64,000 nucleotides of DNA from Blastococcus haudaquaticus (GTDB lineage Bacteria; Actinomycetota; Actinomycetes; Mycobacteriales; Geodermatophilaceae): assembly GCF_900230285.1 (NCBI RefSeq), contig NZ_OCNK01000002.1:620001-684000 (forward strand), read 5' to 3'. A model generated the notes under the pieces. It worked only from the letters and a program-made list of their open reading frames with translations, was not told where the DNA came from and ran no database searches. Below are positions 16,460-47,156 of this stretch, in pieces. Position 1 is the first letter of the stretch. Each line of letters starts with the position of its first letter. A program made the position numbers and the translations under genes.

Positions 16460-16625
16460 CAGCCTGACTCGCGCGCGAGCCGTCGGATCACCCGCGTCGG
16501 CGGTCCCGAGGTCCTCGAGGTCGAGGACCCTCGCCTGGCCGGAGGCCGGTCCTGGCCAGCAGCTCTACGGCGTCTCGACCGCCGGTGTGAACGACCCCCG
16601 TCACCCACCACCGGCGTGCGATTGA
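16460..16625 (+). repeat. Decayed 5' stub A of the quinone oxidoreductase gene
   Basis: This copy matches the promoter and first 45 codons of the gene at 46185. The -10 reads CAGCCT instead of TAGCCT, the start codon has become GCG (16473-16475), and one base is missing a few codons in (at about 16485), before the conserved GGPEVL region. The later CTCTACGGCGTCTCGACC and CACCCACCACCGG segments are clear. Similarity ends at the same point as in the other copies, and a TGA follows. Non-functional. Confidence 0.8.
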
Positions 16626-16670
16626 CCTGACCTGCGGGTCCGGTCCGCGAACGCTCCTGAGCTGGCTCGG

Positions 16671-16880
16671 CGATCTTCCTCTTTCGGCTTCGGCTTCGGC
16701 ACCACGCAACAGGACCTCGGCCCCGAGGAGGTCCGGACCAGCCCACCCTGTGACAACACGTCCCAGTGGACGCGGATCCGGCAGTTCAGTCAGTTCTCGG
16801 TGTTGTTCTCCGGTTCGTGCGAAGGAAGCCTTGGCAGCTCGAGATCCGCGGCATCTGCGGCGCCGCCGGTCGAGGTCTGA
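16671..16880 (+). pseudogene. Frameshifted duplicate of the zinc-ribbon gene
   Basis: The sequence repeats the zinc-ribbon gene of 16222: FGFGTTQQDLGPEEV and NTSQWTRIRQF are readable in one frame, LEIRGICGA in another, and the terminal VEV returns to the first. The first CPRC has become SPPC, the start region is altered and at least two frameshifts are present. With stub A before it and stub B after it, this looks like a duplicated zinc-ribbon/stub unit. Confidence 0.8.
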
Positions 16881-16912
16881 GGCGCTCACGCGACGCGACC
16901 GGGCGGGCCGCC

Positions 16913-17416
16913 TCAGCCGCCCGGCTGCCGACCGCCCGCTCCCACGGGGACCGCTGATTCAGCCGGCCGACCACGCCTTGCCGACCGTGCCACCCGGTAC
17001 ACGATCGCCGCCTGCAGCGCGTAGACCGCGGCCATCGCGACGAAGAGCGCCGAGAGCGCGACCCACTGGCCAGCGCTCAACGGTCCGACCGCCTCGAGGT
17101 CCGTCTGCGCGATGCCGGTGGCCTGCACGGGGATGGCGACCGCGCCGGCGCCGAAGACGAACATCGGCCAGCGAGCCCGGCTCCACGCGAGCGCGACCGC
17201 ACCCGGCGTGAGGAAGGCGACGTAGAAGAGCGCGATGAACGCCAGGCCGCTCCAGGTGAACGTCGGGGTTCCTTCGGCGACGACCACGATGACGCGCATC
17301 AGCGCCCGGGTGAGTACAGCCCCCAGCAGTCCGCCGAGCAGCGCCGCTGCAACCCCTCGGGCGAGAGCCCGCACCGACCGCTGCCCACCCATCCCCGACT
17401 CTCCGTCGACCTCCAT
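16913..17416 (-). CDS. Hypothetical membrane protein
   Basis: A 167-residue protein with four likely membrane helices: ARGVAAALLGGLLGAVLTRALM, GLAFIALFYVAFLTPGAVAL, WPMFVFGAGAVAIPVQATG and WVALSALFVAMAAVYALQAA. The C-terminus is polar and basic. I recognise no family. ATG 17416 has a TAGCGT twelve bases upstream and no ribosome site. ATG 17392, eight codons in, has GGAGAG six bases upstream and may be the true start. The gene separates the zinc-ribbon pseudogene from stub B. Confidence 0.7.
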   Translation of the reverse strand: MEVDGESGMGGQRSVRALARGVAAALLGGLLGAVLTRALMRVIVVVAEGTPTFTWSGLAFIALFYVAFLTPGAVALAWSRARWPMFVFGAGAVAIPVQATGIAQTDLEAVGPLSAGQWVALSALFVAMAAVYALQAAIVYRVARSARRGRPAESAVPVGAGGRQPGG

Positions 17417-17500
17417 GGCCGATGGACGCTAGGGGAGATCGGGGCGCCGGAGGGTGCCCTGACGCGCGGGACTTTTGCGCCGGGCACCTCACCTGGCGGG

Positions 17501-17653
17501 AAGCGTGCTGTGCAGATCAACCGTTTCGGCGGTCCCGAGGTCCTCGACGTCGTCGACGTCCCCGAGCCGGAGGCGGGCCCCGGACAGCTCTACGACGTCT
17601 CGACCGCCGGCGTGAACTACGCCGACACCCACCAGGGCCCGTCGGTCAACTGA
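17501..17653 (+). repeat. Stub B: 50-codon copy of the quinone oxidoreductase 5' end, start codon lost
   Basis: The frame is open from 17501 to a TGA at 17651, reading KRAVQINRFGGPEVLDVVDV and ending AGVNYADTHQGPSVN. The start codon is AAG; a GTG four codons in could replace it. The -10 position holds TCACCT, a weak match to TAGCCT. Similarity to the parent ends at the DTHQ codons. Probably dead, but the frame is intact. Confidence 0.8.
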
Positions 17654-17680
17654 GCTGACGAGCGCTGGACGGGCCGAAGG

Positions 17681-18043
17681 TCACGACTGAGGCGCGGGTT
17701 GGTCAGCCGAGGGCACGAGTCCGAGTTCGATCTTGTTCATGGTGTCCGCAAATGCCTCGGAGATGTCGATGCCGAGGCGGTCGGCGATGACGATCACCCA
17801 CCACAACGACTCGGACAGCTTGTGTGCCAGCTGCGCATCGACGTCGCCGTCGATGTCCCAGGTCCCCTCATGGGCCAGGATCAGTCGACCCACTGTGCCG
17901 ACGTCGTAGCTGAAGCCCAGCATGAGCTCCTGGAGCGTCCACACCTGGCCGTTCAGTCGTCGTTCGATGGCCTCGTAGAGGGCCCGAACCTCCATCGCCC
18001 GATGGCGTGCGGGCTCGAGATCGACCTGTCCGGGCTGGCTCAC
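17681..18043 (-). CDS. MazG-like nucleotide pyrophosphohydrolase domain protein
   Basis: A 120-residue all-helical protein. The C-terminal half, QLAHKLSESLWWVIVIADRL then GIDISEAFADTMNKIE, resembles the second helix pair of MazG-like dNTP pyrophosphatases, where an ELGDVLWY-type motif binds magnesium. Here the acidic residues are only partly kept (HKLSESLWW), so activity is uncertain. The GTG start at 18043 overlaps the stop of the XRE gene as GTGA, indicating translational coupling. It is the last gene of the SnoaL-XRE-MazG-like unit. Confidence 0.65.
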   Translation of the reverse strand: MSQPGQVDLEPARHRAMEVRALYEAIERRLNGQVWTLQELMLGFSYDVGTVGRLILAHEGTWDIDGDVDAQLAHKLSESLWWVIVIADRLGIDISEAFADTMNKIELGLVPSADQPAPQS

Positions 18044-18939
18044 GTCGACTCCTGGGTGCCTGTGACGTGGGAAGAGGGTCCGACTATCGGAAATCCGTTG
18101 CCCACGCGCTCGGTCGCTTCCATCGCACCGAGAAGGGCCAGAGCGTCCTCACTGGGACTGCCCGGCGCTGCGCTGGCCACGGTCAACTGCAGTCCCGGCG
18201 ACTCGCGTACGTCGAACGTCTGGTAGGACAGCTCGAGGTCACCGACGGCGGGGTGTCGGATGTGCATGTGCACGGTCGTGAGACCGGCGACCTCATGGGC
18301 GTCCCACATGGCGGCGAACGCTGGGCTGCGGACGTAGAGGCGGCGCACCAGGGCGGCAACCTCGGGGTGCGGCGGCGAGAAGCCCGCGGAGAGGCGTATG
18401 CCGCTGACCGATGCGTGAGCGACGTCGTCCCAGTGCACGAAGTACGTCGGCGCGGTCGGATCGAGGAACAGGTACTCCAGCACCTTGCCGTCGTGGTGGG
18501 CCGGAGCGATCAGCCCGGCCGCGATCTCGTTGGCCGCGATCACGCGGAAGGCGGGGTTCACGACGTAGGCCGCGGCCTTCGAGAACGAGTTCAGCAGCTG
18601 CCGCAGGTGTGGGCTCAGCTGCTCTTCGGTGGCTCGGGTCGTCGGGGCGAGCCGCGCCAGCCGGAAGGCATGCTCACGAGCGTCGGCGCCCAGTTGCAGG
18701 GCGCGGGCGACCGCCTCCATGAGCTGTGGGGACGGGGCGCGCTCGCGCCCTTGCTCGAGGCGGGCGTAATAGTCGGAGCTCACGCCGGCCAGCACGGCGA
18801 CTTCTTCGCGCCGCAGGCCGGTCACGCGTCGGCTGCCGACGCTGCGCAGCCCGGCCGCCTCGGGTGTGATCCGGGCGCGCTGGGCTCGGAGGAAGTCCCC
18901 GAGCTCGTTGTCTCTCGCCCCGGTGTGCGCTCCAGACAT
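18040..18939 (-). CDS. XRE-family regulator with MmyB-like ligand domain
   Basis: A 299-residue regulator. Residues about 12-80 form the HTH (FLRAQRARITPEAAG, then GLRREEVAVLAGVSSDYYAR and LEQGRERAPSPQL). Residues about 105-280 are the MmyB-like PAS-type domain (VVNPAFRVIAANEIAAGL, AVGDLELSYQTFDVRESPGL). In this family the domain is thought to bind small ligands, and the neighbours are often oxidoreductases. ATG 18939 has GGAGCTGA upstream. It sits two bases after the SnoaL-like gene and probably controls this unit and perhaps the divergent hydrolase at 19490. A broken paralogue lies at 26464. Confidence 0.88.
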   Translation of the reverse strand: MSGAHTGARDNELGDFLRAQRARITPEAAGLRSVGSRRVTGLRREEVAVLAGVSSDYYARLEQGRERAPSPQLMEAVARALQLGADAREHAFRLARLAPTTRATEEQLSPHLRQLLNSFSKAAAYVVNPAFRVIAANEIAAGLIAPAHHDGKVLEYLFLDPTAPTYFVHWDDVAHASVSGIRLSAGFSPPHPEVAALVRRLYVRSPAFAAMWDAHEVAGLTTVHMHIRHPAVGDLELSYQTFDVRESPGLQLTVASAAPGSPSEDALALLGAMEATERVGNGFPIVGPSSHVTGTQEST

Positions 18940-18941
18940 GG

Positions 18942-19334
18942 TCAGCTCCGTTCGGTGTTCACCATGACGAACCGGCTGCACCGGCCGGATTCCTCGAAGG
19001 TCACGGTCCAGCGGTTGTCGAAGTCGCCGAGCTTCGCGTACCGCCCGATCCCGGTGATGACGACGTCCCACCCGTCGATCGCGGCGATGGACCACTCGAA
19101 CTCCCATCCGCCACTCTGCCAGTCCCACCGGCTGCGCCAACCCTCGATAATCGCCTCCCGACCGATCCAGTCGGTGTCGTAGGGCGATTCGTGGTACTCG
19201 GCGTCGTCGGTGAAGAGGGACTCGATGTCGGCGCGGGCGCTGCTCCTCCATGCCTTCACGTAGTCCTCGACCCACCGGGTGACCGAGGCGGTCGTCGGGC
19301 CCGGCGGGACTGCATCCCCGGTGGCTGGCGTCAT
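18942..19334 (-). CDS. SnoaL-like / NTF2-fold protein
   Basis: A 130-residue single-domain protein: VTRWVEDYVKAWRSSARADI, SLFTDDAEYHESPYD, IEGWRSRWDWQSG and NRWTVTFEESGRCSRFVMV follow the cone-shaped NTF2 fold of SnoaL-like isomerases and of many small-molecule binders. Function unknown. It is first in a tight unit with an XRE regulator (2-bp gap) and a MazG-like protein, and divergent from the hydrolase at 19490. Confidence 0.85.
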   Translation of the reverse strand: MTPATGDAVPPGPTTASVTRWVEDYVKAWRSSARADIESLFTDDAEYHESPYDTDWIGREAIIEGWRSRWDWQSGGWEFEWSIAAIDGWDVVITGIGRYAKLGDFDNRWTVTFEESGRCSRFVMVNTERS

Positions 19335-19489
19335 GGGTCCGAGCCTGCCCGCGGGTGGAGACGCCAGCCAGGGTGCATTGCTCCTAGGGTGTCGCGCCCT
19401 TCACCGGCGAGCGCGACGCCAGGAGTCTCGGGAGCGGAGATCGTCTCCGATGGCCCCTCTCGCTCGCTCCCTGGAAGGTGCACCCAGCC

Positions 19490-20221
19490 ATGACCGATCC
19501 GGCCCCCACGCCCACCGTGGTCATCGTCCACGGCGCGTGGACCGACGCGAGCTCCTTCGCGGAAGTCCAGCGCCTCCTGTCCCAGGAGGGCTACGAAGTC
19601 CTCGCGTTCGCCAATCCGCTCCGCTCGCTCGCAGGCGACGCGGCCTACCTCGCCACGTTCCTCCGGACGCATACGAACGGGCCCGTCGTCCTCGTGGGCC
19701 ACTCCTACGGCGGTGCCGTCATCGGCGCCGCGGGCCTCGCCGCGACCGACGTGCGCGCCCTGGTGTACGTCAACGCGTTCGTGCCAGCGGAGGGCGAGAG
19801 CCTGCTCGACCTGCTCAACAGCGTCGGACCCGTCGACCCCGCTCAGCTGTTCGACATGGTGCCCTACCCCGGGGCCCCTGAGGGCGACGTCGACCTGTAC
19901 ATCCAGCGCGGGCCGTTCGAGCCGGCGTTCGCGACAGGCCTCTCCGAAGAGCTCCAGACGGAGTTCTACGCCAAGCAGCGCCCCATCACGTTCGCAGCGG
20001 TGGGCGCGCCGGCGGCCCCGGGCCAGGCCTGGGAGCAGCTCCCCTCCTGGTACGTCGCTGGACGGGTCGACGGGAGCATCCCGCTCGACCTGCAGTTGCG
20101 GATGGCCAAGCGCGCCGGAGCGACCGTCACCGAGGTCCAGGCCGGGCACCTGTCCATGGTCGATCACCCCCGAGAGGTGGCGGACGTGATCAAGGAAGCC
20201 GCACGCGGCACCGCGCAGTAG
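19490..20221 (+). CDS. Alpha/beta hydrolase (EstC-like)
   Basis: A 243-residue cytoplasmic hydrolase of the salicylate-esterase/EstC group: VVIVHGAWTDASSF (oxyanion loop), GHSYGG with Ser72, VYVNAFVPAEGESLLDLL, and a final AGHLSMVDHPREV carrying the His. A paralogue with the same motifs lies at 39384. ATG 19490 follows GGAAGG by about 11 bases. It is transcribed away from the SnoaL/XRE unit, which is the usual arrangement for a regulated enzyme. Confidence 0.88.
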   Translation: MTDPAPTPTVVIVHGAWTDASSFAEVQRLLSQEGYEVLAFANPLRSLAGDAAYLATFLRTHTNGPVVLVGHSYGGAVIGAAGLAATDVRALVYVNAFVPAEGESLLDLLNSVGPVDPAQLFDMVPYPGAPEGDVDLYIQRGPFEPAFATGLSEELQTEFYAKQRPITFAAVGAPAAPGQAWEQLPSWYVAGRVDGSIPLDLQLRMAKRAGATVTEVQAGHLSMVDHPREVADVIKEAARGTAQ

Positions 20222-20328
20222 GCGATGGCGCGTGGGGTGCTCGAACGACGGCACCCGCGCCTCGACTGCACCCACCCCAGCGAGTCCGAGCGCAACCGAC
20301 CTCTCTCAGCAGACAAGAAGGAGCACCC

Positions 20329-20916
20329 ATGCCCACCACGCGGTCCACCGAGCACCTGCACGCCGCCGACGACCCCGAGTACGTGCGAACGCCTCCGGTG
20401 ACCCATGTCGCCGTGCTGGGTGACGGGGCACCCGGGACCGACGAGTTCTACCGCAAGAAGGCTCTGGTGGCAGACATCGCCGACGAACTGACCCGAACCC
20501 GGTCTGCGCCGGTCGTGGAGATCCAGTACTGGTACCCGGAAGGTTCCACGCCCGTCGAGATTGCTGACTTCTACAGCGTGAACCCGGTTCCGTCCCTGCT
20601 CTACCGGGTCCTCTGCCAGGTTCCCGCAGGCACCACCCAGACGAACATCGAGGACGCCCGGGCCCGCGCAGCAAGTACCGCGGACACGCCGTCCGACGAG
20701 GTGGCCGTGCTCTCCATGCCCGAACAGGACGTCGTCCAGGTCATGCACCACGGCCCGTTCGCCGAAGAGCTCACCACGCTCGAGCTGCTCGGCGAGTTCG
20801 CCCGGCAGCAGGGCCTGCGTCGACGCGGGCCGCACCACGAGATCCACCTCGACGGCTTCACGCGCAGCACATCACAGGACACCCTCCGCACGATCTTGCG
20901 AGACCCCGTCGGGTGA
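20329..20916 (+). CDS. GyrI-like small-molecule-binding protein
   Basis: A 195-residue stand-alone GyrI/AraC-effector-like domain: HVAVLGDGAPGTDEFYRKK, VVEIQYWYPEGSTPVEIADF, VMHHGPFAEELTTLELLGEF and GPHHEIHLDGFTRS. Such proteins bind or hydrolyse hydrophobic drugs, and some degrade cyclopropanoid toxins. ATG 20329 has AAGGAG five bases upstream. It follows the EstC-like hydrolase by 107 bases and may be co-transcribed. Confidence 0.85.
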   Translation: MPTTRSTEHLHAADDPEYVRTPPVTHVAVLGDGAPGTDEFYRKKALVADIADELTRTRSAPVVEIQYWYPEGSTPVEIADFYSVNPVPSLLYRVLCQVPAGTTQTNIEDARARAASTADTPSDEVAVLSMPEQDVVQVMHHGPFAEELTTLELLGEFARQQGLRRRGPHHEIHLDGFTRSTSQDTLRTILRDPVG

Positions 20917-21241
20917 CCAGCTGTCCCGACACCGGCATGTGACGCGGGCACGACAGGGAGACGCACCCTCGCAGACAGAGTGGAACGCGGACGGCGTCGT
21001 TGACAGGGCGAGAGCAGGGCCCCTCGACGAAATTCCTCTGCGCCCAACGTGCCCGCACCACGCCCGCGGAAGGGCCGAAAGCGTCTCGGCGCCGGCGCAG
21101 TGGGGTAGACCTTCTCCACCCGGACCACGATCGCCGGGCGCAGTTGCTCGCGGGTCTGCCGCCGCTGCCTGTTGAGGACGTTCCCACTCAGTGCTGCTGC
21201 GGCGAGCACACCGCCCGTCACGTTCAGCGTGGGGAAGCCCA
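20917..21241. other. Intergenic stretch with a possible minus-strand gene remnant
   Basis: 325 bases without an intact gene. On the minus strand, from about 21241, the sequence reads NRQRRQTREQLRPAIVVRVE. This resembles the juxtamembrane segment (RQLREARKLREEQAQPYVV) of the intact protein at 43399-44232. The rest is not readable as that family, so this could be a 5' remnant of a paralogue or a coincidence. Confidence 0.3.
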
Positions 21242-21247
21242 TAGCCT
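21242..21247 (+). promoter_or_regulatory. -10 element (TAGCCT) of stub C
   Basis: TAGCCT ends seven bases before ATG 21255. The element and the following CTCCGTC are identical to those before the intact gene at 46185, so the promoter was copied together with the coding part. Confidence 0.55.
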
Positions 21248-21254
21248 CTCCGTC

Positions 21255-21404
21255 ATGCGCGCTGTGCAGATCACCCGCTTCGGCGGCCCCGAGGTCATGG
21301 ACGTCGTCGACCTCCCCGACCCAGCGCCTGGCGACGGGCAGAAGCTGTACGAGGTCAGCTCGGCAGGGGTCAACTTCGCCGACACCCACCACCGGCTGAC
21401 CTGA
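21255..21404 (+). CDS. Stub C: intact 49-codon mini-gene from the quinone oxidoreductase 5' end
   Basis: The frame encodes MRAVQITRFGGPEVMDVV, LPDPAPGDGQKLYEVSS and AGVNFADTHHRLT, then TGA. It is the N-terminal part of the GroES-like domain of the quinone oxidoreductase encoded at 46185 and cannot form the cofactor site or the Rossmann domain. The -10 element and ATG are preserved with 7-base leaderless spacing, so it may be expressed. Of all the copies it is closest to the parent, sharing EVMD, LPDP, LYEVSSAGVNFADTH and the upstream 16 bases. No later part of the oxidoreductase follows. Function as a protein is doubtful. Confidence 0.6.
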   Translation: MRAVQITRFGGPEVMDVVDLPDPAPGDGQKLYEVSSAGVNFADTHHRLT

Positions 21405-21691
21405 GAGGTACCTCAACTGGGCTGCACGCGCAGGGTCCACCTGGGCATCGTCGGTCAGTCGCGGACCGCCCTGCCGGCGGTGCGCTGATTAACTACCGGC
21501 GTCGCAGCCCACCCCTCTCGTAGCGGCTCCACCTCGATCGCCCCACGAGGTGATCGACGGCAGCACCGCACTCTTCGGCCGCACCGGAATCACGGCCAGC
21601 GCCTATGCGCCCGGCGCCATGATGGTCGGCACGGACGGCGATGGATCCGGCCACGATGGCCGGAACACTGATCGAGTCCTCGACACGGGCA
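21405..21691. other. Intergenic region, no gene recognised
   Basis: 287 bases between stub C and a small membrane-protein gene on the opposite strand. Short open frames exist on both strands but none has a ribosome site with family-like sequence. A few A/T-rich bases near 21487 (GATTAACTA) stand out in the GC-rich context. Confidence 0.4.
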
Positions 21692-21943
21692 TCAACGTCG
21701 CGCCAGGAGCCGGGCGCGGATCCGGTGCAGACGCGGCATGAGGCCGTACATGACGATCGGCACTGCCACTGTCGCGACGACGAACGTCCGTAGAACGATC
21801 GGGACGTCGGTCAAGAGGCTGCCGAACGCCACGTTGAGGACGGTGAGCGTCGGTACGACAGCGAGCCAGATCATCAGCGCGAGCTGGTGCCTGGACGGCG
21901 GCGGAGCCGGTGTGGGACGGGGGGCAGAACGGTCACTGGACAT
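21692..21943 (-). CDS. Small two-helix membrane protein
   Basis: An 83-residue protein with a Pro-rich N-terminus and two membrane helices, LALMIWLAVVPTLTVLNVAF and VLRTFVVATVAVPIVMYGLM, ending in a basic tail (PRLHRIRARLLARR). Short membrane proteins of this shape often accompany redox enzymes. The ATG at 21943 has AAGGAG eight bases upstream. It lies 36 bases after the FAD oxidoreductase on the same strand, so the two probably form an operon. Confidence 0.75.
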   Translation of the reverse strand: MSSDRSAPRPTPAPPPSRHQLALMIWLAVVPTLTVLNVAFGSLLTDVPIVLRTFVVATVAVPIVMYGLMPRLHRIRARLLARR

Positions 21944-21979
21944 GGGGGCACTCCTTGAGATGGCGAGATGTGGTGGGAG

Positions 21980-22975
21980 CTAGAGGCCGTGCCGGCGAGC
22001 GCCGAGCACGGTCCGGGTGACGGCGGACTCCGTCGCACCGGCGAACACACCGGCTGCGGCGTGCCGGCTGTCGACGGCGCGCTCGACGTCCTCCTGGACG
22101 AGGTCGGCGTTGATGGCGATCGCGGCTGCGGACCCGGCCCCGGCGGAGGTGATCACCTGCGCGCGAGGATCGACGACGTTGCCGGCGGCCCAGACGCCGA
22201 AGGCGCTGGTGCGGCCGGTGGGATCGACGGACACCGAACCGGCCTCGTCCACGGCGCAGCCCAGGCCGGTCAGCAGACAGTCACTGGAGGGCGCGCTGAC
22301 GGGGCGGACGAACACCGCCGTCCGTTCGATGATCCGGCCGTCGGCCAGCTCGACGCCGGTCAACCGGTCCGCCTCGACCACCAGACGCGCTACCTCACCC
22401 CGGACGAGCTGGATGCCGCGCGCCTCGAGCTGAACCCGTTCGGCTGTCGTCAGGGCGGAGGTGTGGGCGAAGAAGACCACGTCGTCCGACCACTGCCGCA
22501 CGAGCTGGGCGTGCTGCACGGATCCCGGCGCGCCGGCCAGCACCCCGAGCGGCTGGTCCCGCACCTCCCACCCGTGGCAGTAGGGACAGTGCAGGAGGTC
22601 TCGGCCCCATCGCTCCCGGACCCCGGGTACTCCCGGCAGGTCGTCGCCGACACCCGTCGCGACCAGGATCCGCCGCGCCCGCAGCAACCGGCCACCGGAC
22701 AGGTGGACGAGGAAGCCGGGATCGATCCGCGTGACCCGGTCGTCCACCAGCTCGACGCCGTAGCCGGCCACCTCCCTGCGACCGGTGGTCGCGAAGTCAG
22801 CGGGCGCCATCCCGTCGCGGGTCAGGAAACCCTGCATGTGCGCCGCGGGCGCGTTGCGCGGCTCGCCGGAATCGACGACCGCGACGCGACGCCGTGCCCG
22901 ACCCAGCACGAGCGCCGCACTCAGGCCCGCCGCTCCCCCACCTATGACAACTACGTCGTGGACCTTCGCCTCCAT
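21980..22975 (-). CDS. FAD-dependent oxidoreductase, thioredoxin reductase-like
   Basis: A 331-residue flavoprotein. VVVIGGGAAGLSAALVLG (residues 8-25) binds FAD, CPYC at 130-133 is placed like the thioredoxin-reductase active-site pair, and GVWAAGNVVDPRAQVITSAG near 280 is the second FAD motif. The CPYCHGWEVRD type is found in actinobacterial thioredoxin reductase homologues and in the small-thiol oxidases of natural-product clusters. ATG 22975 has a long GGAGGTGATC Shine-Dalgarno. The XRE-cupin regulator is divergent, 91 bases away, and likely regulates it. A small membrane protein follows. Confidence 0.9.
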   Translation of the reverse strand: MEAKVHDVVVIGGGAAGLSAALVLGRARRRVAVVDSGEPRNAPAAHMQGFLTRDGMAPADFATTGRREVAGYGVELVDDRVTRIDPGFLVHLSGGRLLRARRILVATGVGDDLPGVPGVRERWGRDLLHCPYCHGWEVRDQPLGVLAGAPGSVQHAQLVRQWSDDVVFFAHTSALTTAERVQLEARGIQLVRGEVARLVVEADRLTGVELADGRIIERTAVFVRPVSAPSSDCLLTGLGCAVDEAGSVSVDPTGRTSAFGVWAAGNVVDPRAQVITSAGAGSAAAIAINADLVQEDVERAVDSRHAAAGVFAGATESAVTRTVLGARRHGL

Positions 22976-23066
22976 GACGATCACCTCCGCCGGAAGCGTG
23001 CGGCGGGGGTGCGAACCTGACAACAACCGTTGCCGTTTCCGGGAATGTGGTGGTGGACTGGCCGCC

Positions 23067-23663
23067 ATGCAGGACTCGACGGTGGTGGCGAAGGCATTGG
23101 CGGATGTGGGCCCCCGGCTGCGACGGGTGCGGACCCAGCGGGACATCACGCTGACCCAGCTCGCCGCCGCCACCGGCATCTCGAAGAGCACGCTGTCCCG
23201 GCTCGAGAGCGGCCAGCGCAGACCCAGCCTCGAGCTGCTCCTGCCGATCGCCCTCGCCCACAAGATTCCGCTCGACGAGCTGATCGGCTCTCCGGAGGTG
23301 GGGGATCCGCGGGTCCGATTCCGGCCGCGCAACCGCAACGGCCGCGTCGTGGTCCCGCTGACCGGGCAGCCCGGTGCCCTGCAGGCGTGGAAGGTGGTAC
23401 TCCCTCCCGAGCAGGGCGAACCGGAGCTGCGCACCCATGAGGGCTACGAGTGGCTCTACGTGCTGTCCGGACGGATGCGACTGGTCCTGGCCGACCACGA
23501 CATCACGATGGGCGCCGGGGAGGCCGCCGAGTTCGACACCCGGGTCCCGCACTGGTTCGGGCCCGCCGGCGACCAGGCCGTGGAGATCCTCAGCCTGTTC
23601 GGCCGCCAAGGCGAGCGCATCCACGTCCGCGCCGCCCCCCGGCGCAGTGACGGCGGCGCGTGA
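23067..23663 (+). CDS. XRE-family regulator with C-terminal cupin domain
   Basis: A 198-residue regulator. The HTH lies at about 15-70 (RLRRVRTQRDITLTQLAAAT, ISKSTLSRLESGQRRPSLEL), and the cupin at about 105-190 (LRTHEGYEWLYVLSGRMRLV, GEAAEFDTRVPHWFGPAG, with two metal-type His residues). Such proteins sense small metabolites and often control a divergent oxidoreductase, as arranged here. The start ATG 23067 is the first Met before the HTH; it lacks a strong ribosome site. Confidence 0.9.
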   Translation: MQDSTVVAKALADVGPRLRRVRTQRDITLTQLAAATGISKSTLSRLESGQRRPSLELLLPIALAHKIPLDELIGSPEVGDPRVRFRPRNRNGRVVVPLTGQPGALQAWKVVLPPEQGEPELRTHEGYEWLYVLSGRMRLVLADHDITMGAGEAAEFDTRVPHWFGPAGDQAVEILSLFGRQGERIHVRAAPRRSDGGA

Positions 23664-24959: not shown

Positions 24960-24999
24960 AGCCCTGGTCACCGCGGACCAGAGGGTCCACAGTGGGCCG

Positions 25000-40106: not shown

Positions 40107-40120
40107 GGCGGACTCCGTTC

Positions 40121-41071
40121 CTAGAGGGTGCCGAGAGCGGTGCGGAGGACGTGGATCGCCTGCTGGACGGCGGCGCTGGTCGCCTGCGACGGTCGCAGCG
40201 GGTTGAGCATCATGAAGTCGTGGATCGTCGCGTTGTAGCGGACGCTCGTTGTGGGCACGCCGGCGTCGAGGAGCCGCCGTGCGTAGGCCTCCCCCTCGTC
40301 GCGCAGCACGTCGTTCTCGTCCACGATCAGGAAGGCGGGAGGCAGGCCGGCGAGCTGCTCCCGCGTGGCCCGCAGCGGTGAGGCCGTGATCTCCGCCCGC
40401 GCCTGCTCCTCCGGGGCGTAGCAGTCCCAGAACCAGGCCATCGCCTTCGCGGTCAGGTGGGGACCGTCGGCGAACTGGACGTAGCTGGCGGTGTCCTGGG
40501 CGGCGTCGGTGACGGGGTAGTACATCGACTGGTGCACGAAGGCCACGTCGCCGCGCTGCTTGGCCATCAGGGTCAGGGCCGTGGTCATGTTCCCGCCGAC
40601 CGAGTCACCGGCCACTGCCATCCGGGAGGCGTCCAACCCCTCCGAAGCGCCGTGCGCGGTGATCCAGCGTGCGGTGGCGTACGCCTGCTCGATCGCCACC
40701 GGGTAGCGCGCCTCGGGCGAGCGGTCGTACTCGACGAACACGACCGCGGCCCGCGCGCCGGAGGCGAGTTCGCGCACCAGCCGGTCGTGGGTGTCGGCAT
40801 TGCCGAGGACCCATCCCCCACCGTGGACGTACAGGACGACCGGGAGGTCGCCGAGCGCGCGCGTCGGCTTCACGATCCGGACCCGCACGTCACCCACCTC
40901 GGCGGGGACGGTGATCCACTTCTCGTCGACGACCGGCTTGTCGACGAGGACCGCCTGCAGGTCGTCCAGGACCTTGCGAGCTCCCTCCGGTCCGAGTTCG
41001 TAGAGGAACGGCGGCACGGCAGTCGCCTCGGCGAACGCCTGAGCCTCCGGTTCGAGGACGGGCTTGGTCAT
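40121..41071 (-). CDS. Alpha/beta hydrolase, hormone-sensitive-lipase family esterase
   Basis: A 316-residue esterase: HGGGW at 83-87, GDSVGG at 155-160 (Ser157), a likely acid in FLIVDENDVLRDEGEAYARR, and a His in ATIHDFMML. ATG 41071 has GAGGAG seven bases upstream, excluding a 40-residue N-terminal extension. It is first in a two-gene unit with the EstC-like hydrolase. It is more distant from the esterase at 23955, which has GASAGG instead of GDSVGG. Confidence 0.92.
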   Translation of the reverse strand: MTKPVLEPEAQAFAEATAVPPFLYELGPEGARKVLDDLQAVLVDKPVVDEKWITVPAEVGDVRVRIVKPTRALGDLPVVLYVHGGGWVLGNADTHDRLVRELASGARAAVVFVEYDRSPEARYPVAIEQAYATARWITAHGASEGLDASRMAVAGDSVGGNMTTALTLMAKQRGDVAFVHQSMYYPVTDAAQDTASYVQFADGPHLTAKAMAWFWDCYAPEEQARAEITASPLRATREQLAGLPPAFLIVDENDVLRDEGEAYARRLLDAGVPTTSVRYNATIHDFMMLNPLRPSQATSAAVQQAIHVLRTALGTL

Positions 41072-41219
41072 GGTGTGGCTCCTCGGTCGAGCGGTAGGTG
41101 GACGTGCCCGACGAGCGTCACCTCGCGCCCGTGCCGAGGACCACGAGGAAGTCGCGCAGAAACACCGCTCCTGCGCCCTGGGCGCGCACACCGGCGAGAC
41201 GGCCCACCGCCATGCGCGG

Positions 41220-42449
41220 TCAGGTCCGCGGCGGATCCGACTCCCGGCCGCGTCGTCGCGACGAGGCCACGGCGCTCGCCACGACGAGGAACGTGCAGAC
41301 CGCGGCGATCATCAGCACCACAACGGCCAGACCCGTCGTCGGGGCGAGCGCCGGCAGGAGCAGCACCACCACCGCGGCTCCCAGAACGAGCACCGGGTGG
41401 ACCGGCTGCGCGGCCAGCGGCAGGTGGACCGCCCAGAGCAGCGCGAGGAAGAGGGCCACCGGCACGGCGACGGCGTAGCCGACACCCACGGCGGAGATCT
41501 CGAGGTGGTGCCCGGCGCCCTCGACTGCGACCTCGAGGCCGGCTCCCACGGCAGCGGCCGCCGCGAAGATGCCGTAGTGGCCGTACCCCCAGAGGAACGA
41601 CCGCTCCCGGTTTTCGGCCAGCCCGGGGCCGCTGCGCTGCAGGAAGTAGAGCCACCAGAGGGCGAAGAGGAGCACCAGCCCCGCTCCGGCGACGGTCACT
41701 AGCGACCAGTTGAGGCCGCCCGTCGAAAACGCCGCCTGGAACCCCGTCGAAGCGGCGAGCACGCTTTCCCCGAGGACGATGATCACGAAGAGGCCGTACC
41801 GCTCGGCGATGTGATGGGGGTGCCAGCTCGTGGGCCGGGCCCGCTCCGCCCATCGCGGGACGGCGAGCTCCGCGACGACGAGGCCGATGAACACCGGGAC
41901 CAGCGCGCCGTCGCGGAGCTCTCCGCCTTCTGCGAGCACCAGGCGGAGGAGCCAGCCGACCTCCAGCACCGAGATGCCAGCGGCGTACCGGAATGCCGTG
42001 CGCCGCCCGACCGGGTGCTCGATCCCCGCCCGGACCCACTGCGCGACGAGCGCGGCTCGCATGACGAGGTAGCCGACCGTGACGGCACGGTAGTCCGAGT
42101 CCGTGAAGACGGCGGGCACTCCGGCGGCGAGCACCAGCACGCCGGCCATCTGGACCATCGTCAGGAGCCGGTAGGGGACGTCGTCGGTGTCGTAGGACGA
42201 GGCGAACCAGGTGAAGTTCATCCACGCCCACCAGATGGCGAAGAACACCTGCAGGAAGGGCAGCACCTGCTGGAGGGCGTGGCCGTCGGCTATCCCGTGC
42301 GCGAGCTGTACGGTGACGCTCGCGATGGCCACGACGAAGGTGAGATCGAACAGGAGCTCGAGCGGGCTGGCGGCGCGGTGCGGCTCATCGATGGCGCGCT
42401 CGGTCATGCGGACGTGACCCCACCTGCTCGAGGCCGCCTCGCCCGTCAC
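41220..42449 (-). CDS. Low-temperature-requirement A (LtrA)-like membrane protein
   Basis: A 409-residue protein with about ten to twelve membrane helices. The family hallmark is at the N-terminus: SPLELLFDLTFVVAIASVTV, then FFAIWWAWMNFTWFASSYDT, and HIAERYGLFVIIVLGESVLA in the middle. LtrA-family function is unresolved. The GTG start at 42449 lies six bases from a -10-like TAGGCT and has no ribosome site, so it is probably leaderless; ATG 42407 is an alternative. Confidence 0.92.
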   Translation of the reverse strand: MTGEAASSRWGHVRMTERAIDEPHRAASPLELLFDLTFVVAIASVTVQLAHGIADGHALQQVLPFLQVFFAIWWAWMNFTWFASSYDTDDVPYRLLTMVQMAGVLVLAAGVPAVFTDSDYRAVTVGYLVMRAALVAQWVRAGIEHPVGRRTAFRYAAGISVLEVGWLLRLVLAEGGELRDGALVPVFIGLVVAELAVPRWAERARPTSWHPHHIAERYGLFVIIVLGESVLAASTGFQAAFSTGGLNWSLVTVAGAGLVLLFALWWLYFLQRSGPGLAENRERSFLWGYGHYGIFAAAAAVGAGLEVAVEGAGHHLEISAVGVGYAVAVPVALFLALLWAVHLPLAAQPVHPVLVLGAAVVVLLLPALAPTTGLAVVVLMIAAVCTFLVVASAVASSRRRGRESDPPRT

Positions 42450-42455
42450 GCGGAC

Positions 42456-42461
42456 AGCCTA
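42456..42461 (-). promoter_or_regulatory. -10 element of a leaderless ltrA-like transcript
   Basis: On the minus strand TAGGCT ends six bases before GTG 42449. Confidence 0.5.
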
Positions 42462-42702
42462 GGGACTGCCCCCACGAGACGGTTCCTCCGTCGGTCCGCT
42501 GTCGGGACCGGCACCGCCGTGGCGGCCGGGCCTGACGTACGGCTGGGCACCACGTCCGACCGCCGGGGACGTCGCGTCCTCACCTGCTCGAACGGCACCA
42601 AAGTCCCCGGACGATGGCTTTCTACCGCCCTGTGACACAGACGCCGGAGGACCCGCCCGATAGTGCACCGACCGCCCTGCCGGAACCCAGCCAGGCGGGC
42701 CT

Positions 42703-42867
42703 TGGCCTGGCCGCCAGGCGTGCCGTGCAGATCACCCGCTTCGGCGGTCCGGAGGTCCTGGACGTCGTCGACGTCCCCGAGCCGAGGCGGGGGACGGTCA
42801 GAGGCTCTACGGCGTCTCCACCGCCGGCATCAACTGCGCCGACACCCACCACCGACGCGAGCGTTAA
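42703..42867 (+). repeat. Decayed stub F of the quinone oxidoreductase 5' end
   Basis: The -10 reads TGGCCT (42703-42708), and the start codon is AGG (42716). RRAVQITRFGGPEVLDVVDV is intact, then one base is missing in the PEPEAG region, after which RLYGVSTAGINCADTHHRRE continues to a TAA. Same end point as the others. Non-functional. Confidence 0.8.
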
Positions 42868-43111
42868 CTCTCACGCCCTTGCGTCTTGTCCGCGGTTGAC
42901 AGCCCGCGTCGAGCGGAGGTGAACGGTGTGCTCACCGTCTCGCCCCTTCCCATGCTCGGGGCAGCCATAGTTCGGTGCGATAGCCGAGTGTTGATAGCAG
43001 GCAGGCCGGCAGCGAACAGCTGAGGCCTGACCGGTGGCCGCCACCGCCTGGGGCCGCGCATAGGTCCTGTCACGCCTCCGCCTAAGCAGCTGTTTGCGGC
43101 GTGTCGCTGGC
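42868..43111. other. Intergenic region, no gene recognised
   Basis: Together with the direct-repeat promoter below it forms a gap of 289 bases. GC content drops noticeably here (GATAGCCGAGTGTTGATAGC and similar), marking the left side of a lower-GC stretch that runs to about 45.9 kb. Confidence 0.45.
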
Positions 43112-43149
43112 TGTCCACTTCCGTGAACACCCCTGTGTCCACTTACCGT
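43112..43149 (+). promoter_or_regulatory. Direct repeats and -10 before the 43157 gene
   Basis: TGTCCACTT occurs at 43112-43120 and again at 43136-43144, 24 bases apart, immediately before a -10-like TACCGT (43144-43149) that ends seven bases before ATG 43157. The spacing puts the copies near -45 and -21, a plausible activator or repressor site. Confidence 0.45.
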
Positions 43150-43156
43150 CCGGCGC

Positions 43157-43378
43157 ATGGACAGGTGGACAAACGTCGTGGTCAACGTCGAAGGCAGTCA
43201 GTTGGTGCTGACGCCCTCAGTGACCGGCTTGCAGACGAACTTGTTGCACAGCGGACTACGGAACGTCTTGGCGCTGCTCGACGAACTCGGGTTGCAGGGC
43301 TGGGAGGTGACTGCCGTTCGGGAGGATGAGTACTGGCTGAAGAAGCCCATTCCCGAAGGGCACAGCCGAGCCTGGTAG
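43157..43378 (+). CDS. Small DUF4177-like protein
   Basis: A 73-residue protein. The core VLALLDELGLQGWEVTAVRE followed by DEYWLKKP matches the LNELGxEGWELVxV pattern of DUF4177-type proteins; function is unknown. ATG 43157 is supported by a TACCGT seven bases upstream (leaderless). It lies at the left end of the lower-GC segment, next to an uncharacterised membrane-anchored gene on the other strand. Confidence 0.75.
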   Translation: MDRWTNVVVNVEGSQLVLTPSVTGLQTNLLHSGLRNVLALLDELGLQGWEVTAVREDEYWLKKPIPEGHSRAW

Positions 43379-43398
43379 CCGGGCGAGCGCTAGCTAGG

Positions 43399-44232
43399 TT
43401 AAGACGGCACGTCGGGCTTAGGATCGACAGCTTCCGCCTCGGACGATTGCCCGGGAGCCCGGCTGTACTCCTGGCCGGGCAGCAATTGCCGCGTCAACTC
43501 CTCATGCTTCGCCTTGGCTGTCGCCCTTGCCTCCCGCTGCCGCTGATCGGCGGCATCTCCATCTCGCACGAACACAGCCATCCCGCCACGTCCGCTGTTT
43601 TGGAAGCTCTTCACCGTTCGGCGAATCTCCTGCAAAGCGGTGGCGATCTCATGCACTCCCTTGGTCACGAGCCATTCGCGGGTGGAGAAGTCGCGCCAGT
43701 CAAGAACCGACGGCGTGCTCGGCAGTGGCTTGCCCTTACTGTCCTGATAGGTCACCAGAACGTCATGACGGTCGGGCAGGTCGGGGAAGTCAACGCGCGC
43801 AGTGCCGAGGTCCCACCAGGTCCGCCACTCCTGCCCGGGCACCAAAGCTGGGATCTGCGCAGGCAGATGAACCTGCTCGGGCTCGCGTCCAGCGTGACCG
43901 CTTCGCATCAACGACGGCTGCACTGTCAACTCGACGTCACGAGCCACCGTCGTTCCAAAGTTTCTAATAACGATGTCAACAGACTGATCGTGGCCGGGGG
44001 TCTTTTCGGCGTAGCAGACCACGTATGGCTGAGCTTGCTCCTCTCGAAGCTTGCGCGCTTCGCGGAGTTGTCGCCATGCCACCAGGCCAGCGGCGACCGC
44101 GATAAAGGCGGTCACATTTGTCCCGAAAGCCGACCAATCGTCCGGCGTCCATACCGTGAAGGCCGGAAGCCAGTCCAGGTTCAACGCGTGTCCCCCGCTC
44201 GGTCGTTCAGCACTAGCTGAGGACGATGCCAT
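43399..44232 (-). CDS. Hypothetical membrane-anchored protein
   Basis: A 277-residue protein with one membrane helix at about 35-53 (FGTNVTAFIAVAAGLVAW) followed at once by the charged coil RQLREARKLREEQAQPYVVC. A soluble domain follows (IVIRNFGTTVARDVELTVQP, PALVPGQEWRTWWDLG) that looks like an immunoglobulin-like beta fold, then a helical charged C-terminus (RQREARATAKAKHEELTRQL). I know similar uncharacterised actinobacterial proteins but no function. Codon use is less GC3-rich than in the flanks, as for its neighbours. Confidence 0.75.
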   Translation of the reverse strand: MASSSASAERPSGGHALNLDWLPAFTVWTPDDWSAFGTNVTAFIAVAAGLVAWRQLREARKLREEQAQPYVVCYAEKTPGHDQSVDIVIRNFGTTVARDVELTVQPSLMRSGHAGREPEQVHLPAQIPALVPGQEWRTWWDLGTARVDFPDLPDRHDVLVTYQDSKGKPLPSTPSVLDWRDFSTREWLVTKGVHEIATALQEIRRTVKSFQNSGRGGMAVFVRDGDAADQRQREARATAKAKHEELTRQLLPGQEYSRAPGQSSEAEAVDPKPDVPS

Positions 44233-44468
44233 GAGCCACCGACAACACCCGGAGGTGGCGGCCGCGACAGCCGGCCAACCTGCCGACGTCCGCTTCTAGG
44301 GGCCGGGCGCAGCCGCTGGCGGCATCCGGATGCGCATTCCGGTGTGCTTGTCTCCGCCGAGGACGGGGAAGCGGTTGCCTACGCGCTATGGAAGCTGCAG
44401 GAGCGCGGCCGCATGTTCGTGGACCCCGGCGTTGACGGCTCCCCGAAATCCGCGGAGGATTTGCGTCC

Positions 44469-45323
44469 ATGGGCGAGTCGCACGAGGAAATGCTTCGTCA
44501 CTACGAGCCGGGCGGACTTCTGCCGCGAATCGTGGCGGGGTTGCAAGCTCTCGGCAAGGACCTGGACTCGGTCACGCACGAAGATCTCGCGCCGGCCGAC
44601 GAGTTTCACTCCGCGGGACGTTCGGCCACGCGCGCATTGGTGGAGCTTGCAAAGATTCCGCCAGGATCGCGAGTGCTCGACGTGGGCAGCGGGTTGGGCG
44701 GCCCGGCGCGTTACCTCGCCGCAACTTTGGGTTGCGACGTGACAGGCATCGATCTTTCGCCTGAATTCTGCGGGGTGGCCAACGCCCTTTCTCGGATGAC
44801 GCGGTTGTCCGATCGCACGCGCTTTCAGGCGGGTGATGCCCTGGAGCTTCCGTTCGTCGCGTCCAGCTTCGACGTGGTGTGGACGATACAAATGCAGATG
44901 AACATCCGGGACAAGCGCCGCCTGTATTCCGGAATCGCCCGGGTACTCAGGCCGGGCGGGCTGTTCGTCTGCCAGGAAATCTCCGCGGGGAACGGCGAGC
45001 CGATCGAGCTTCCGGTCCCATGGGCGAGCCGCCCCAACCAGAGCCATCTGGCCGATGCGGAATCCCTCCGCGGGTTGATCCGCGGTGCAGGTCTCCTGGA
45101 GCGCACCTGGCGCGACATTACCGCCGACATCGTGGCGGCGCGCAAGGCACAGCAGGCGAACGCGCAAGCATCGGGTGCGAGCGGCTCCAGCGCCCCCCCT
45201 CCTCCGCTTGGAATGCATCTCGTGCTGGGAGAACAGGCAGCCGTCAAGATGAGTAACTCCGGGCGCAACACCGACGCCGGGCGCACGGTGTTCATCCAGG
45301 GCGTATTCGACAAGCCTGGCTAG
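44469..45323 (+). CDS. Class I SAM-dependent methyltransferase, foreign-looking
   Basis: A 284-residue methyltransferase: SAM motif VLDVGSGLGG at 69-78, GCDVTGIDLSPEF (acidic loop), AGDALELPFVASSFDVVWTI and RVLRPGGLFVCQEIS, as in Methyltransf_11 proteins acting on lipids or small molecules. GGAGG lies about ten bases before the ATG. Codon use (TTG, GCA, TTT, AAT, GCG mixes) and base content differ from the surrounding genes and look proteobacterial or otherwise foreign. The gene is followed within 100 bases by a broken IS1380 transposase, suggesting that it arrived by transfer. Confidence 0.85.
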   Translation: MGESHEEMLRHYEPGGLLPRIVAGLQALGKDLDSVTHEDLAPADEFHSAGRSATRALVELAKIPPGSRVLDVGSGLGGPARYLAATLGCDVTGIDLSPEFCGVANALSRMTRLSDRTRFQAGDALELPFVASSFDVVWTIQMQMNIRDKRRLYSGIARVLRPGGLFVCQEISAGNGEPIELPVPWASRPNQSHLADAESLRGLIRGAGLLERTWRDITADIVAARKAQQANAQASGASGSSAPPPPLGMHLVLGEQAAVKMSNSGRNTDAGRTVFIQGVFDKPG

Positions 45324-45414
45324 TGGTCCGATCCGCTGATCCCGCTGGAAGACTCGGCCGAAAAGCAAAAGGCCCCGCGCGACGCTGGAGGCAAATCGAT
45401 CGCTTGTCGTCCGT

Positions 45415-45900
45415 CTCCTTCTCCGAGTGCGCCGTGACCAGGGTGGCGTCAACGTCGATCGCCACCGGCGACGAAGCATCCGCGGCGTGATCGGGGGCGT
45501 GCTCACCGGCCAGTGACCATGCCCGCGCACGGGCGGTCGCGCGCGCAGTGTTGATCGCCGCCAGCGCAGCCGGGGCGTCAGCGGCCAGGGCGTCGATGCA
45601 CCGCGACACGGTCGGGTCCGAGGCGACCAGTCCGAACACCTCCGGGCAGGCACGGAGCTGGGCGATGCCGGCCAGACAGTCCCCGCCCATGGCCAAGCTG
45701 ACCGCCACATCCAGCACGATCTTGGCCGGGTCATGGATCGCCAGCGGCTTGCGCCAGGGCGCCAGCACCTTCGACAGCCCGGCCGTGAGGCCGACGGTCT
45801 GCGCGGTGCGCAACAGCAGCGTCGCCCCGGCATGCGGCACGACGCTCGACCCGCCGCCATCGACTGTGAGCACCGGGTACGGCCCGGTAGTCTTCTTCAC
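45415..45900 (-). pseudogene. Truncated IS1380-family transposase
   Basis: The N-terminal 160 residues of an IS1380-type transposase are clear: PYPVLTVDGGGSSVVPHAGA, ATLLLRTAQTVGLTAGLSKV, PAKIVLDVAVSLAMGGDCLA and AIDVDATLVTAHSEKE, the last including the catalytic Asp strand. Similarity stops at HSEKE, after which the frame runs into unrelated sequence toward the methyltransferase gene. About two thirds of the transposase is missing. I could not identify the terminal inverted repeats. Confidence 0.85.
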
Positions 45901-46171
45901 CAGAAAGGTGCTCCGGTTCCCGCTCGGATCAAGGCCTAGCCAATCTCGATCTTGCAGGTCAGGGGCACCTTTCCTACGTCTGGAGCCGAACGATCACGGC
46001 TCGGCGAGAAAGCCCCGGGTTAGTCGCGGCCTGGCCCAGCACCCCAGCTGAGTGAGCTTGCCCCTGCCGGTCGAAGAGGTAAGAGCTGCGCGGCGGGCGC
46101 ACCCGTCGACACACACCCGTGAAGGGTCCCTGCGGCGACCACACGCAGAGGAACTCCCGCGGAGCACGCCA
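45901..46171. other. Intergenic region between IS remnant and quinone oxidoreductase
   Basis: 271 bases with no gene. It should contain one end of the IS1380 element upstream of the transposase start, but no inverted repeat could be assigned by eye. Confidence 0.4.
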
Positions 46172-46177
46172 TAGCCT
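46172..46177 (+). promoter_or_regulatory. -10 element (TAGCCT) of the quinone oxidoreductase gene
   Basis: TAGCCT ends seven bases before ATG 46185. The same element precedes every partial copy of this gene in the window. Confidence 0.6.
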
Positions 46178-46184
46178 CTCCGTC

Positions 46185-47156
46185 ATGCGCGCTGTCCAGA
46201 TCACCCGCTTCGGCGGCCCGGAGGTCATGGACCTCGTCGACCTGCCTGATCCCCTCCGGGGCGAAGGCCAGCGGCTCTACGAGGTGAGCTCCGCAGGAGT
46301 TAACTTTGCAGACACCCACCAGATCGAGAACTCCTACCTGGCGCAGCAGCAGCTGCCGCTGATCCCCGGCGCGGAGTTCGTCGGCACCCCGGCCGGCGGC
46401 GGGCAGCGGGTCGTCGGGCTCCTCGACGGCGGCGGCTACGCGGAGAAGGTCGCCGCGCACGACGCCCTCACCTGGGCGGTGCCCGACGGCGTGAGCGACG
46501 AGCAGGCATTGTCCGTCGTCCTGCAGGGCTCTACGGCGTGGCACCTGCTGCGCACCAGCACGCACCTGGCCGAGGGTGAGTCGGTCGTCGTCATCGCGGG
46601 CGCCGGCGGCGTGGGCAGCCTCGCCGTCCAGCTGGCCAAGCGCTGGGGCGCGGGCCGGGTCATCGCCACCGCGTCCAGCCCGGAGAAGCGCGCGCTCTGC
46701 GAGGAGCTCGGCGCCGACGCCACCGTCGACCCGGCCCTCGCCGAGGACGACCCCAAGGCCTTCACCACCGCCCTCCGCGAGGCCAACGGCGGGAGACGAG
46801 TCGACATCGTCCTGGAGATGACCGGCGGCAAGGTGTTCGACGGCGCCATGTCGGCGCTCGCCCCCTTCGGCCGGCTGGCCGCCTACGGCATGGCCGGCCG
46901 GGTGCCCCCGAAGCCCGTGCAGGCGCCGTCGCTCATGGGCACCAGCCGCGCCGTCATCGGCTTCTGGCTCGCCCACTGCATGGCCCGTCCGCAGATGATG
47001 GACGCCGCCATGCACGAGCTGCTGCCGATGGTCGCCGACGGCGTGCTGAAGCCCGTGGTCGGCGGCCGCTATCCGCTGTCGGAGGTCCGCCGGGCGCACG
47101 AGGACCTGCTCGCCCGCCGCTCCACCGGCAAGCTCGTCGTCGACCCTCGCAGCTGA
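46185..47156 (+). CDS. Quinone oxidoreductase / zinc-less alcohol dehydrogenase family (intact parent of the stubs)
   Basis: A 323-residue medium-chain oxidoreductase. The GroES-like domain covers residues 1-110 (MRAVQITRFGGPEVMDLVDL, LYEVSSAGVNFADTHQIENS, LIPGAEFVG) and the NADPH domain follows with AGAGGVGS at 138-145 and ATASSPEKRALCEELGADAT. Zinc ligands are absent, as in Qor-type enzymes that reduce quinones or enals with NADPH. The start is probably leaderless. Six partial copies of the first 45 codons lie upstream on the same strand. A CocE hydrolase gene follows 24 bases after the stop. Confidence 0.93.
   Translation: MRAVQITRFGGPEVMDLVDLPDPLRGEGQRLYEVSSAGVNFADTHQIENSYLAQQQLPLIPGAEFVGTPAGGGQRVVGLLDGGGYAEKVAAHDALTWAVPDGVSDEQALSVVLQGSTAWHLLRTSTHLAEGESVVVIAGAGGVGSLAVQLAKRWGAGRVIATASSPEKRALCEELGADATVDPALAEDDPKAFTTALREANGGRRVDIVLEMTGGKVFDGAMSALAPFGRLAAYGMAGRVPPKPVQAPSLMGTSRAVIGFWLAHCMARPQMMDAAMHELLPMVADGVLKPVVGGRYPLSEVRRAHEDLLARRSTGKLVVDPRS

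Follow-up and report, generated by a model that had tools for sequence, protein, structure and literature searches.

Why does the genome of Blastococcus haudaquaticus carry six truncated 5' copies of one enzyme gene, all on the same strand and all upstream of the only intact copy? The question arose from a 64,000-nucleotide stretch of DNA (NCBI RefSeq assembly GCF_900230285.1, contig NZ_OCNK01000002.1, positions 620,001 to 684,000), referred to below as the window, in which the partial copies (stubs) of a zinc-binding dehydrogenase/quinone-oxidoreductase-like gene (QOR) alternate with modules of accessory genes. A preliminary description of the window had suggested repeated insertion of DNA into one codon of this gene. 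We found an array with a fixed crossover interval, shared element ends, empty sites in relatives and modules shared between genera. The reading that we favor, with a probability of roughly 70%, is that the cassettes form an integron-like array, with a host gene as the dock, and are moved by a recombinase acting in trans.

The docking gene and its partial copies

The preliminary description had reported six partial copies upstream of one intact gene, and all seven were recovered where it had placed them, all on the + strand, with the stubs upstream of the sole intact copy of the window.

16451..16614, + strand: stub 1, decayed (nhmmer, 119 bits; core with two mismatches)
17466..17637, + strand: stub 2 (nhmmer, 141 bits)
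21222..21396, + strand: stub 3 (nhmmer, 160 bits)
26024..26201, + strand: stub 4 (nhmmer, 142 bits)
31553..31728, + strand: stub 5 (nhmmer, 146 bits)
42682..42855, + strand: stub 6 (nhmmer, 149 bits)
46185..47156, + strand: intact QOR, zinc-binding dehydrogenase/quinone-oxidoreductase-like, 323 amino acids, the docking gene (Pfam PF00107/PF13602/PF08240)

Each stub combines a TAGCCT-like -10 element, intact or as a remnant, with the start region and some 45 codons; its end is GCCGACACCCACCA or a close variant. The seven copies were alignable from the -10 element through about 45 codons, with poor alignment outside this block. The core reads GCAGACACCCACCA in the intact gene; the sequence described earlier as common to the stubs was exact in four of the six, whereas the stub at 26060 has CATCA and that at 16473 is degraded (CCCGTCACCCACCA). 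Allowing up to two mismatches, the core pattern matched the window 10 times (seven times in QOR copies and three times elsewhere), while 1.45 matches were expected by shuffling. The intact gene was the single match in the whole genome at E ≤ 1e-90, and a paralog with 39% identity is located elsewhere. When the intact 5' end was used as a query against the whole genome (4.51 Mb), six of the seven copies were detected at E ≤ 1.5e-11, all at this locus on the + strand, and the next-best match had an E of 4.8e-5 over 31 nt. A consensus query recovered all seven copies and nothing else in this genome at E 1e-6. Neither an Rfam scan of window positions 16000-47500 nor a tRNA scan of the window returned anything. 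In genomes of the genus, weaker short matches (38-105 nt, E 4e-9 to 4e-7) were also seen at other places.

The start block was widespread in the family Geodermatophilaceae, with a match at E 1e-10 in 100 of 112 genomes, including Blastococcus, Geodermatophilus, Modestobacter and Klenkia (the intact gene counted as one match, and at most seven candidates were scored per genome). Upstream of 91 full QOR genes, 110 stubs of at least 35 bits were found, and 50 of the 91 loci held at least one; the largest array had 10 such stubs (genome G084). These counts are lower bounds because about 19 kb upstream was read in most loci and arrays split between contigs (G003 and G004) were scored as zero stubs. 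All 110 stubs lay upstream of QOR on its own strand; one minus-strand match, in G029, scored 21 bits and thus fell below the 35-bit cut. Downstream of QOR, a median of 1.2 kb was read. An order-level search of 397 genomes, with two candidates scored in each, gave a match in 169; outside the family, the matches listed ended at query positions 151-156, which correspond to the core, without extension into the element's left end.

Empty sites were found in relatives, although not beside the zinc-ribbon gene (16222-16425) that the preliminary description had expected there. The neighbor was instead a divergent gene for 3-deoxy-D-arabino-heptulosonate 7-phosphate (DAHP) synthase (PF00793). The stub-free gap from this gene to QOR is 84 bp in G077 and 481 bp in G012, as measured from the end of the protein match. 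In G001 the same gene is 26 kb from QOR with four stubs between. DAHP synthase is the likely ancestral neighbor of QOR; its position on another contig in the window's genome (G000 C7:19214-20437, L264) suggests a rearrangement there. The zinc-ribbon gene was unsupported in this role, as its distance varied among 11 fetched loci, the window's included.

Crossover interval, element ends and cassettes

The point at which incoming DNA joins QOR was located by comparing genes with similar bodies and different starts. Forty pairs from 31 genomes had body identity of at least 92% and divergence of at least 12% in nt 1-132; the selection rested on differing starts, and the form of the divergence curve played no part in it. 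With the mean divergence of the family set at 1, these pairs stood at 0.81-1.45 in each of the 12-nt bins covering nt 1-132, dropped to 0.03 for nt 133-144, ranged over 0.14-0.64 in the following bins as far as nt 240 and averaged 0.35 over the remainder. Nucleotides 133-138 are almost invariant in the family, whereas nt 139-140 are variable (0.21 and 0.47) yet did not vary in the 40 pairs. This step, together with the constancy of nt 139-140, places the crossover between nt 132 and nt 139, a refinement of the core proposed earlier.

46317..46322, + strand: putative crossover interval, attB-like (QOR nt 133-138, CACCAG), from the divergence step in 40 QOR pairs

Eighteen pairs were also picked by hand, and in nine of them nt 132 was the final mismatch ahead of the break. 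The mean G+C content at third codon positions of the 91 QOR genes rose from 0.887 in codons 36-45 to 0.993 in codons 46-55, although values dip to 0.93 at other places in the gene too. When 5' windows were correlated with the gene body, the coefficient was about zero at codons 1-15 and 0.15-0.29 at codons 21-45, a comparison that is ambiguous because conserved codons hold few variable sites. The element supplies the QOR start at a fixed crossover, as do islands at gene 5' ends. The idea of repeated insertion at one codon, each insert bringing a promoter and 45 codons, has held up: a chimeric QOR, a shared element end, empty sites and upstream stubs in a single orientation were all found, and site-specific serial insertion into codons 44-46 is well supported.

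A further feature of the start block was seen at QOR codons 5-7 (CAGATCACC, window 46197-46205), which show almost no synonymous variation in the 91 genes. The identity of two shared modules falls just past these codons, and they may form a second site recognized at the DNA level.

The element's left end was analyzed in 98 full-length stubs out of 136 matches other than the intact gene. About 25 bp after the core is shared, opening with CCGGCTGTCG and continuing with sequence that resembles GCCAACTGACCTGAG or TGAGAnCTACCTGAG, and the consensus of the 98 stubs is CCGGCTGTCGtgcaACtgACCTGAG. The per-position majority was 37-88% in this segment and 33-45% in the flanks.

17635..17659, + strand: left-end motif of cassette 2, type A, GTCGGTCAACTGAGCTGAC

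Equivalent left ends start at 16611, 21392, 26198, 31725 and 42852, with varying match to the consensus. The CCGG earlier taken as the left end can be replaced by this motif of about 25 bp from the family-wide stub comparison. The claim that five of six stubs read CCGG-type sequence after the core was only partly correct, as strict CCGG is present in three of six and CCG in five of six, the stub at 17501 having GGG. The crossover is flanked by GCCGACA and its inverted repeat TGTCGGC, an arrangement typical of the sites at which tyrosine recombinases act.

Sixty of the 98 stubs retained an open frame of 137 nt together with a usable start; six were frameshifted, six contained a stop, four were in frame with another length, one had a poor start and 21 were unparsed. 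A gene was called in 99 units, and in 72 of these the first gene past the stub is directed toward the stub; a further 18 units had no called gene. The stub promoter is thus not generally the promoter of the cargo.

These features can be joined in the following scheme. A circular DNA would carry a site composed of the promoter and first 45 QOR codons, ending with GCCGACACCCACCA and followed by CCGGCTGTCG...ACCTGAG, and this site would recombine with codons 44-46 of the resident QOR. Crossover within CACCAG would leave the old gene start and the element's left end behind as a stub, while QOR would receive a new promoter and first 45 codons from the element, so that the enzyme gene survives. Repetition of the insertion would produce an array in a single orientation with each module bounded by a site. 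The circular intermediate and the supply of the recombinase in trans are the parts that we infer.

The modules of the window measure 1.0 to 11.1 kb from core to core and encode regulators, oxidoreductases, hydrolases, a sigma/CBS/NB-ARC group, a LuxR protein and LtrA.

16611..17634, core to core: cassette 1, 1.0 kb; a second zinc-ribbon copy at about 16688-16880, then a promoter and 45 codons at the right end
17635..21391: cassette 2; MLTR/HTH regulator, SnoaL_2, alpha/beta hydrolase and GyrI-like (Pfam)
21392..26197: cassette 3; Pyr_redox_2, HTH-cupin regulator, Abhydrolase_3 and PucR-type HTH (Pfam)
26198..31724: cassette 4; TetR, two aldo/keto reductases and FAD_binding_3 (Pfam)
31725..42851: cassette 5, 11 kb; NAD-binding protein, sigma-70-like, CBS, HTH-NB-ARC, LuxR/AAA, two hydrolases and LtrA (Pfam)
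42852..46321, core to core: cassette 6, proximal to QOR; the right end provides QOR with its present first 45 codons

The two reverse-strand open reading frames of cassette 6 (43399-44232 and 44379-45860) had no Pfam match, and the methyltransferase module of the preliminary description was not confirmed. The second zinc-ribbon copy just past stub 1 (16688-16880) is 77% identical to the gene at 16222-16425 over 194 nt; stub 1 and the zinc ribbon look as if they were duplicated or acquired together. Across the loci, the median unit size was 3.3 kb (117 units), and longer intervals occur, such as about 39 kb between stubs in G038.

The modules were shared between genera. Cassette 2 of the window also sits between two stubs in G018, which belongs to another genus, with identities of 94.9% over 2588 nt and 88% over 1139 nt, and the right half of cassette 3 is common to G084 (86%). 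A 1.9-kb DUF429-RelA/SpoT block was about 92-96% identical over many genomes of several genera, and its protein matches the candidate defense model PDC-S44. This gene, of unusually high identity, was present in the arrays of G002, G016, G021, G023, G034, G100, G101 and others (L053:11682-13418). Another recurrent cargo was a double-GTPase-like protein (PF19993) with a 120-amino-acid partner (L060:13797-15304), detected in eight genomes and inside arrays in six.

The putative recombinase and the competing explanations

The preliminary description had seen no integrase, and none appeared in the wider search. Recombinase families gave no match among the window proteins scanned. For the tyrosine type (PF00589), the matches listed in 20 + 18 genomes included none on the array's contig within 96 kb, the nearest being in G001. 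Among the 70 gene clusters listed, some of which were scanned with Pfam, none occurred in most modules, and no transfer genes were recognized among the proteins scanned. The lack of a PF00589 match listed near the arrays and of a cluster common to the modules makes it likely that the cassettes are moved by a recombinase supplied in trans.

The window's genome encodes exactly two PF00589 proteins at E 0.1, as does G091. They were closest to XerD (326.5 bits, cut-off 329.6) and XerC (306.3 bits, cut-off 335.15), thus falling below these equivalog cut-offs by 3 and 29 bits. In this same genome, no serine-type recombinase (PF00239) was found at E 0.001, and the two proteins scored 122.5 and 111.2 bits as integron integrases, for which the cut-off is 265. 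The host XerC/XerD pair can tentatively be named as the leading candidate, with weak support. The broader proposal, in which capture of chromosomal cassettes throughout the family uses one codon of a housekeeping-type enzyme gene as the dock and XerC/XerD as the sole recombinase, an integron without an integrase, is doubtful.

The dif site of the window's genome, located by a pattern search, reads TGCGCCGATAA TGCACA TTATGTCAACT. The left arm of the stub consensus at the crossover, TTCGCCGACAC, agrees with this dif at 8 of 11 positions (about 0.013 expected over some 12 placements). The right arm agrees at 4-5 of 11 with an 8-bp center, the total of 12/22 being tied by three other block placements; the likeness to dif is suggestive only. 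According to one study, cer has an 8-bp center between its arms, and attP of TLCphi matches dif on the XerC side and in the center, not on the XerD side, a relation that resembles that of the stub site to the QOR site (PMC5357621).

Several observations weigh against cassette insertion by a recombinase in trans. Neither a circle nor an excision junction was observed. The intact site of the window agrees with the left arm of dif at 6 of 11 positions. Several contigs with arrays were only 31-83 kb long, PF00589 matches being listed down to weak scores. There was no clear age gradient in stub decay, the correlation with distance from QOR being -0.03 (rho, n = 126) overall and -0.35 as the mean within 18 genomes. 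Among 31 loci with both DAHP synthase and QOR, 13 had no stub (20 bits) between the two genes, at gaps of 84 bp to 18.4 kb, so some of the intervening material is unexplained by stubs or the stubs have decayed; some loci hold cargo without recognizable stubs. The remaining points concern the ends of shared modules. A module of G100 and G102 keeps an identity of 94-100% as far as about nt 24 into the right stub and has 76-88% beyond; the module common to the window and G018 is 75-82% identical at 21000-21149, 90-92% at 21150-21249 and 74-84% over the rest of the stub. Fifty-one pairs of modules, representing 21 units, had a module identity of 90% or more; in these the right stubs averaged 81% and the left stubs 79%, the same level as random stub pairs (80%, standard deviation 4.8). 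Over 86 pairs, module identity showed a weak correlation with identity in the right stub (rho 0.22) and none with identity in the left.

Extrachromosomal forms were also sought, and this candidate was set aside. Six plasmid and two phage records matched, and the two regions examined (Nonomuraea and Streptantibioticus) held a full-length and a partial QOR-like match. In viral contigs the 5'-stub pattern gave no match, and two exact core matches were weak to the stub model (13.5 and 10.3 bits).

Among the alternatives, ordinary islands (integrative and conjugative elements, integrative and mobilizable elements or prophages) that entered at the gene 5' end and later lost their integrases are unlikely. 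The 5' end of prfC is another such insertion site for islands. The geometry is also that of the dusA islands, in which the gene 5' end is replaced (PMC4482086). However, neither a listed PF00589 match near the arrays in 38 genomes, nor a cluster common to most modules among those listed, nor a transfer gene in the scanned proteins was found, and the units are small despite the occasional long interval.

Homologous recombination between divergent stub and QOR starts, over about 160 bp of homology, could shuffle or insert modules with no site-specific enzyme; we regard this as quite unlikely. Shared modules do lose identity within the right stub, and the rise in correlation between 5' windows and gene body could represent a gradient. 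Crossovers scattered over the start should, however, make divergence fall toward the core, and no such fall was seen in the 40 QOR pairs, which show a step past nt 132, the position of the last mismatch in half of the hand-picked pairs. The same 25-bp left end on unrelated cargo is also left unexplained. Homologous recombination inside the stubs may act in addition to site-specific insertion.

Cassettes of the integron type that recombine as folded single-stranded attC-like hairpins are improbable. The logic of the array is similar, and the type A consensus folds well on the bottom strand (-14.3 kcal/mol, z -4.1, 0/200 shuffles), but the other typed consensus had no strong fold (z 0.33 and -1.30). 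The bottom strands of 117 modeled circular sites averaged -9.70 kcal/mol, compared with -9.61 (standard deviation 0.11) for re-paired halves and -9.45 for shuffles, and the chromosomal stub sites averaged -10.33 kcal/mol. Neither PF00589 protein of the window's genome reached the integron-integrase cut-off. A hairpin as the general site was rejected: one consensus folds well, but the test on 117 units failed.

A proliferating mini-gene repeat (promoter and an open reading frame of about 47 amino acids ending DTHHRLS*) is very unlikely, even though an open frame persists in many stubs and an in-frame TGA is often provided by the left end, because the stubs of the window's genome lie only upstream of QOR in one orientation, none of the 110 stubs in 91 loci is on the opposite strand, and QOR itself is chimeric at the core. 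This repeat and homologous recombination, the two alternatives already named in the preliminary description, both explain the data less well than cassette insertion.

Relation to known systems and significance

A literature search, with most subscription journals outside its reach, found no paper on the QOR array. The dusA islands and prophages likewise insert at a gene 5' end, replace the start with that of the element and leave a 5' remnant; they carry a cognate integrase family (PMC4482086), whereas no integrase was listed near the QOR arrays, which have up to 10 serial stubs (G084). The ssrA islands of Dehalococcoides are also serial, on one side of one gene, with direct repeats of the gene end and a conserved motif beside the repeat (PMC3146451). 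An integration module is present in 16 of the 31 islands and the others lack it; the target is the 3' end of tmRNA and the 16 islands encode serine recombinases (PMC3146451). The QOR arrays are instead targeted to codon 45 of a protein-coding gene, and no recombinase was seen in them. The dif/pdif modules of Acinetobacter resemble the arrays in that adaptive modules lie between short sites and their movement is linked to host Xer, and they were not detected in related genera (PMC6449649). The QOR sites are directly oriented, chromosomal, inside a gene and only partly dif-like. The orientation of pdif sites alternates. As with Xer-mobilized elements in general (IMEX and dif modules), no integrase of their own was listed near the QOR arrays, and the window's genome encodes proteins closest to XerC and XerD; the dif-like core of such elements has 11-bp arms and a center of 6-8 bp.

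An integron or a cluster of attC sites lacking integron integrases (CALIN) is a cargo array in the same orientation, with one recombination site per unit and a fixed docking site alongside. The QOR array likewise has units in the same orientation, each with one site, beside a fixed dock; it differs in that the window's genome yielded no IntI, attC-like folding is not a general property of the site and the dock is a host enzyme gene. We classed it as serial site-specific cassette accretion, since it appears to work like integrons and dif modules yet lacks two of the traits that define an integron and has a site that is only partly dif-like.

In desert and stone actinobacteria, the QOR arrays preserve a record from which serial gene capture can be read. 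They move accessory genes between genera, including the DUF429-RelA/SpoT candidate phage-defense gene, and they raise the testable question of which recombinase moves cassettes that encode none. If it is host Xer, the gene-capture role of Xer would reach past dif sites and plasmids into the interior of a coding gene.

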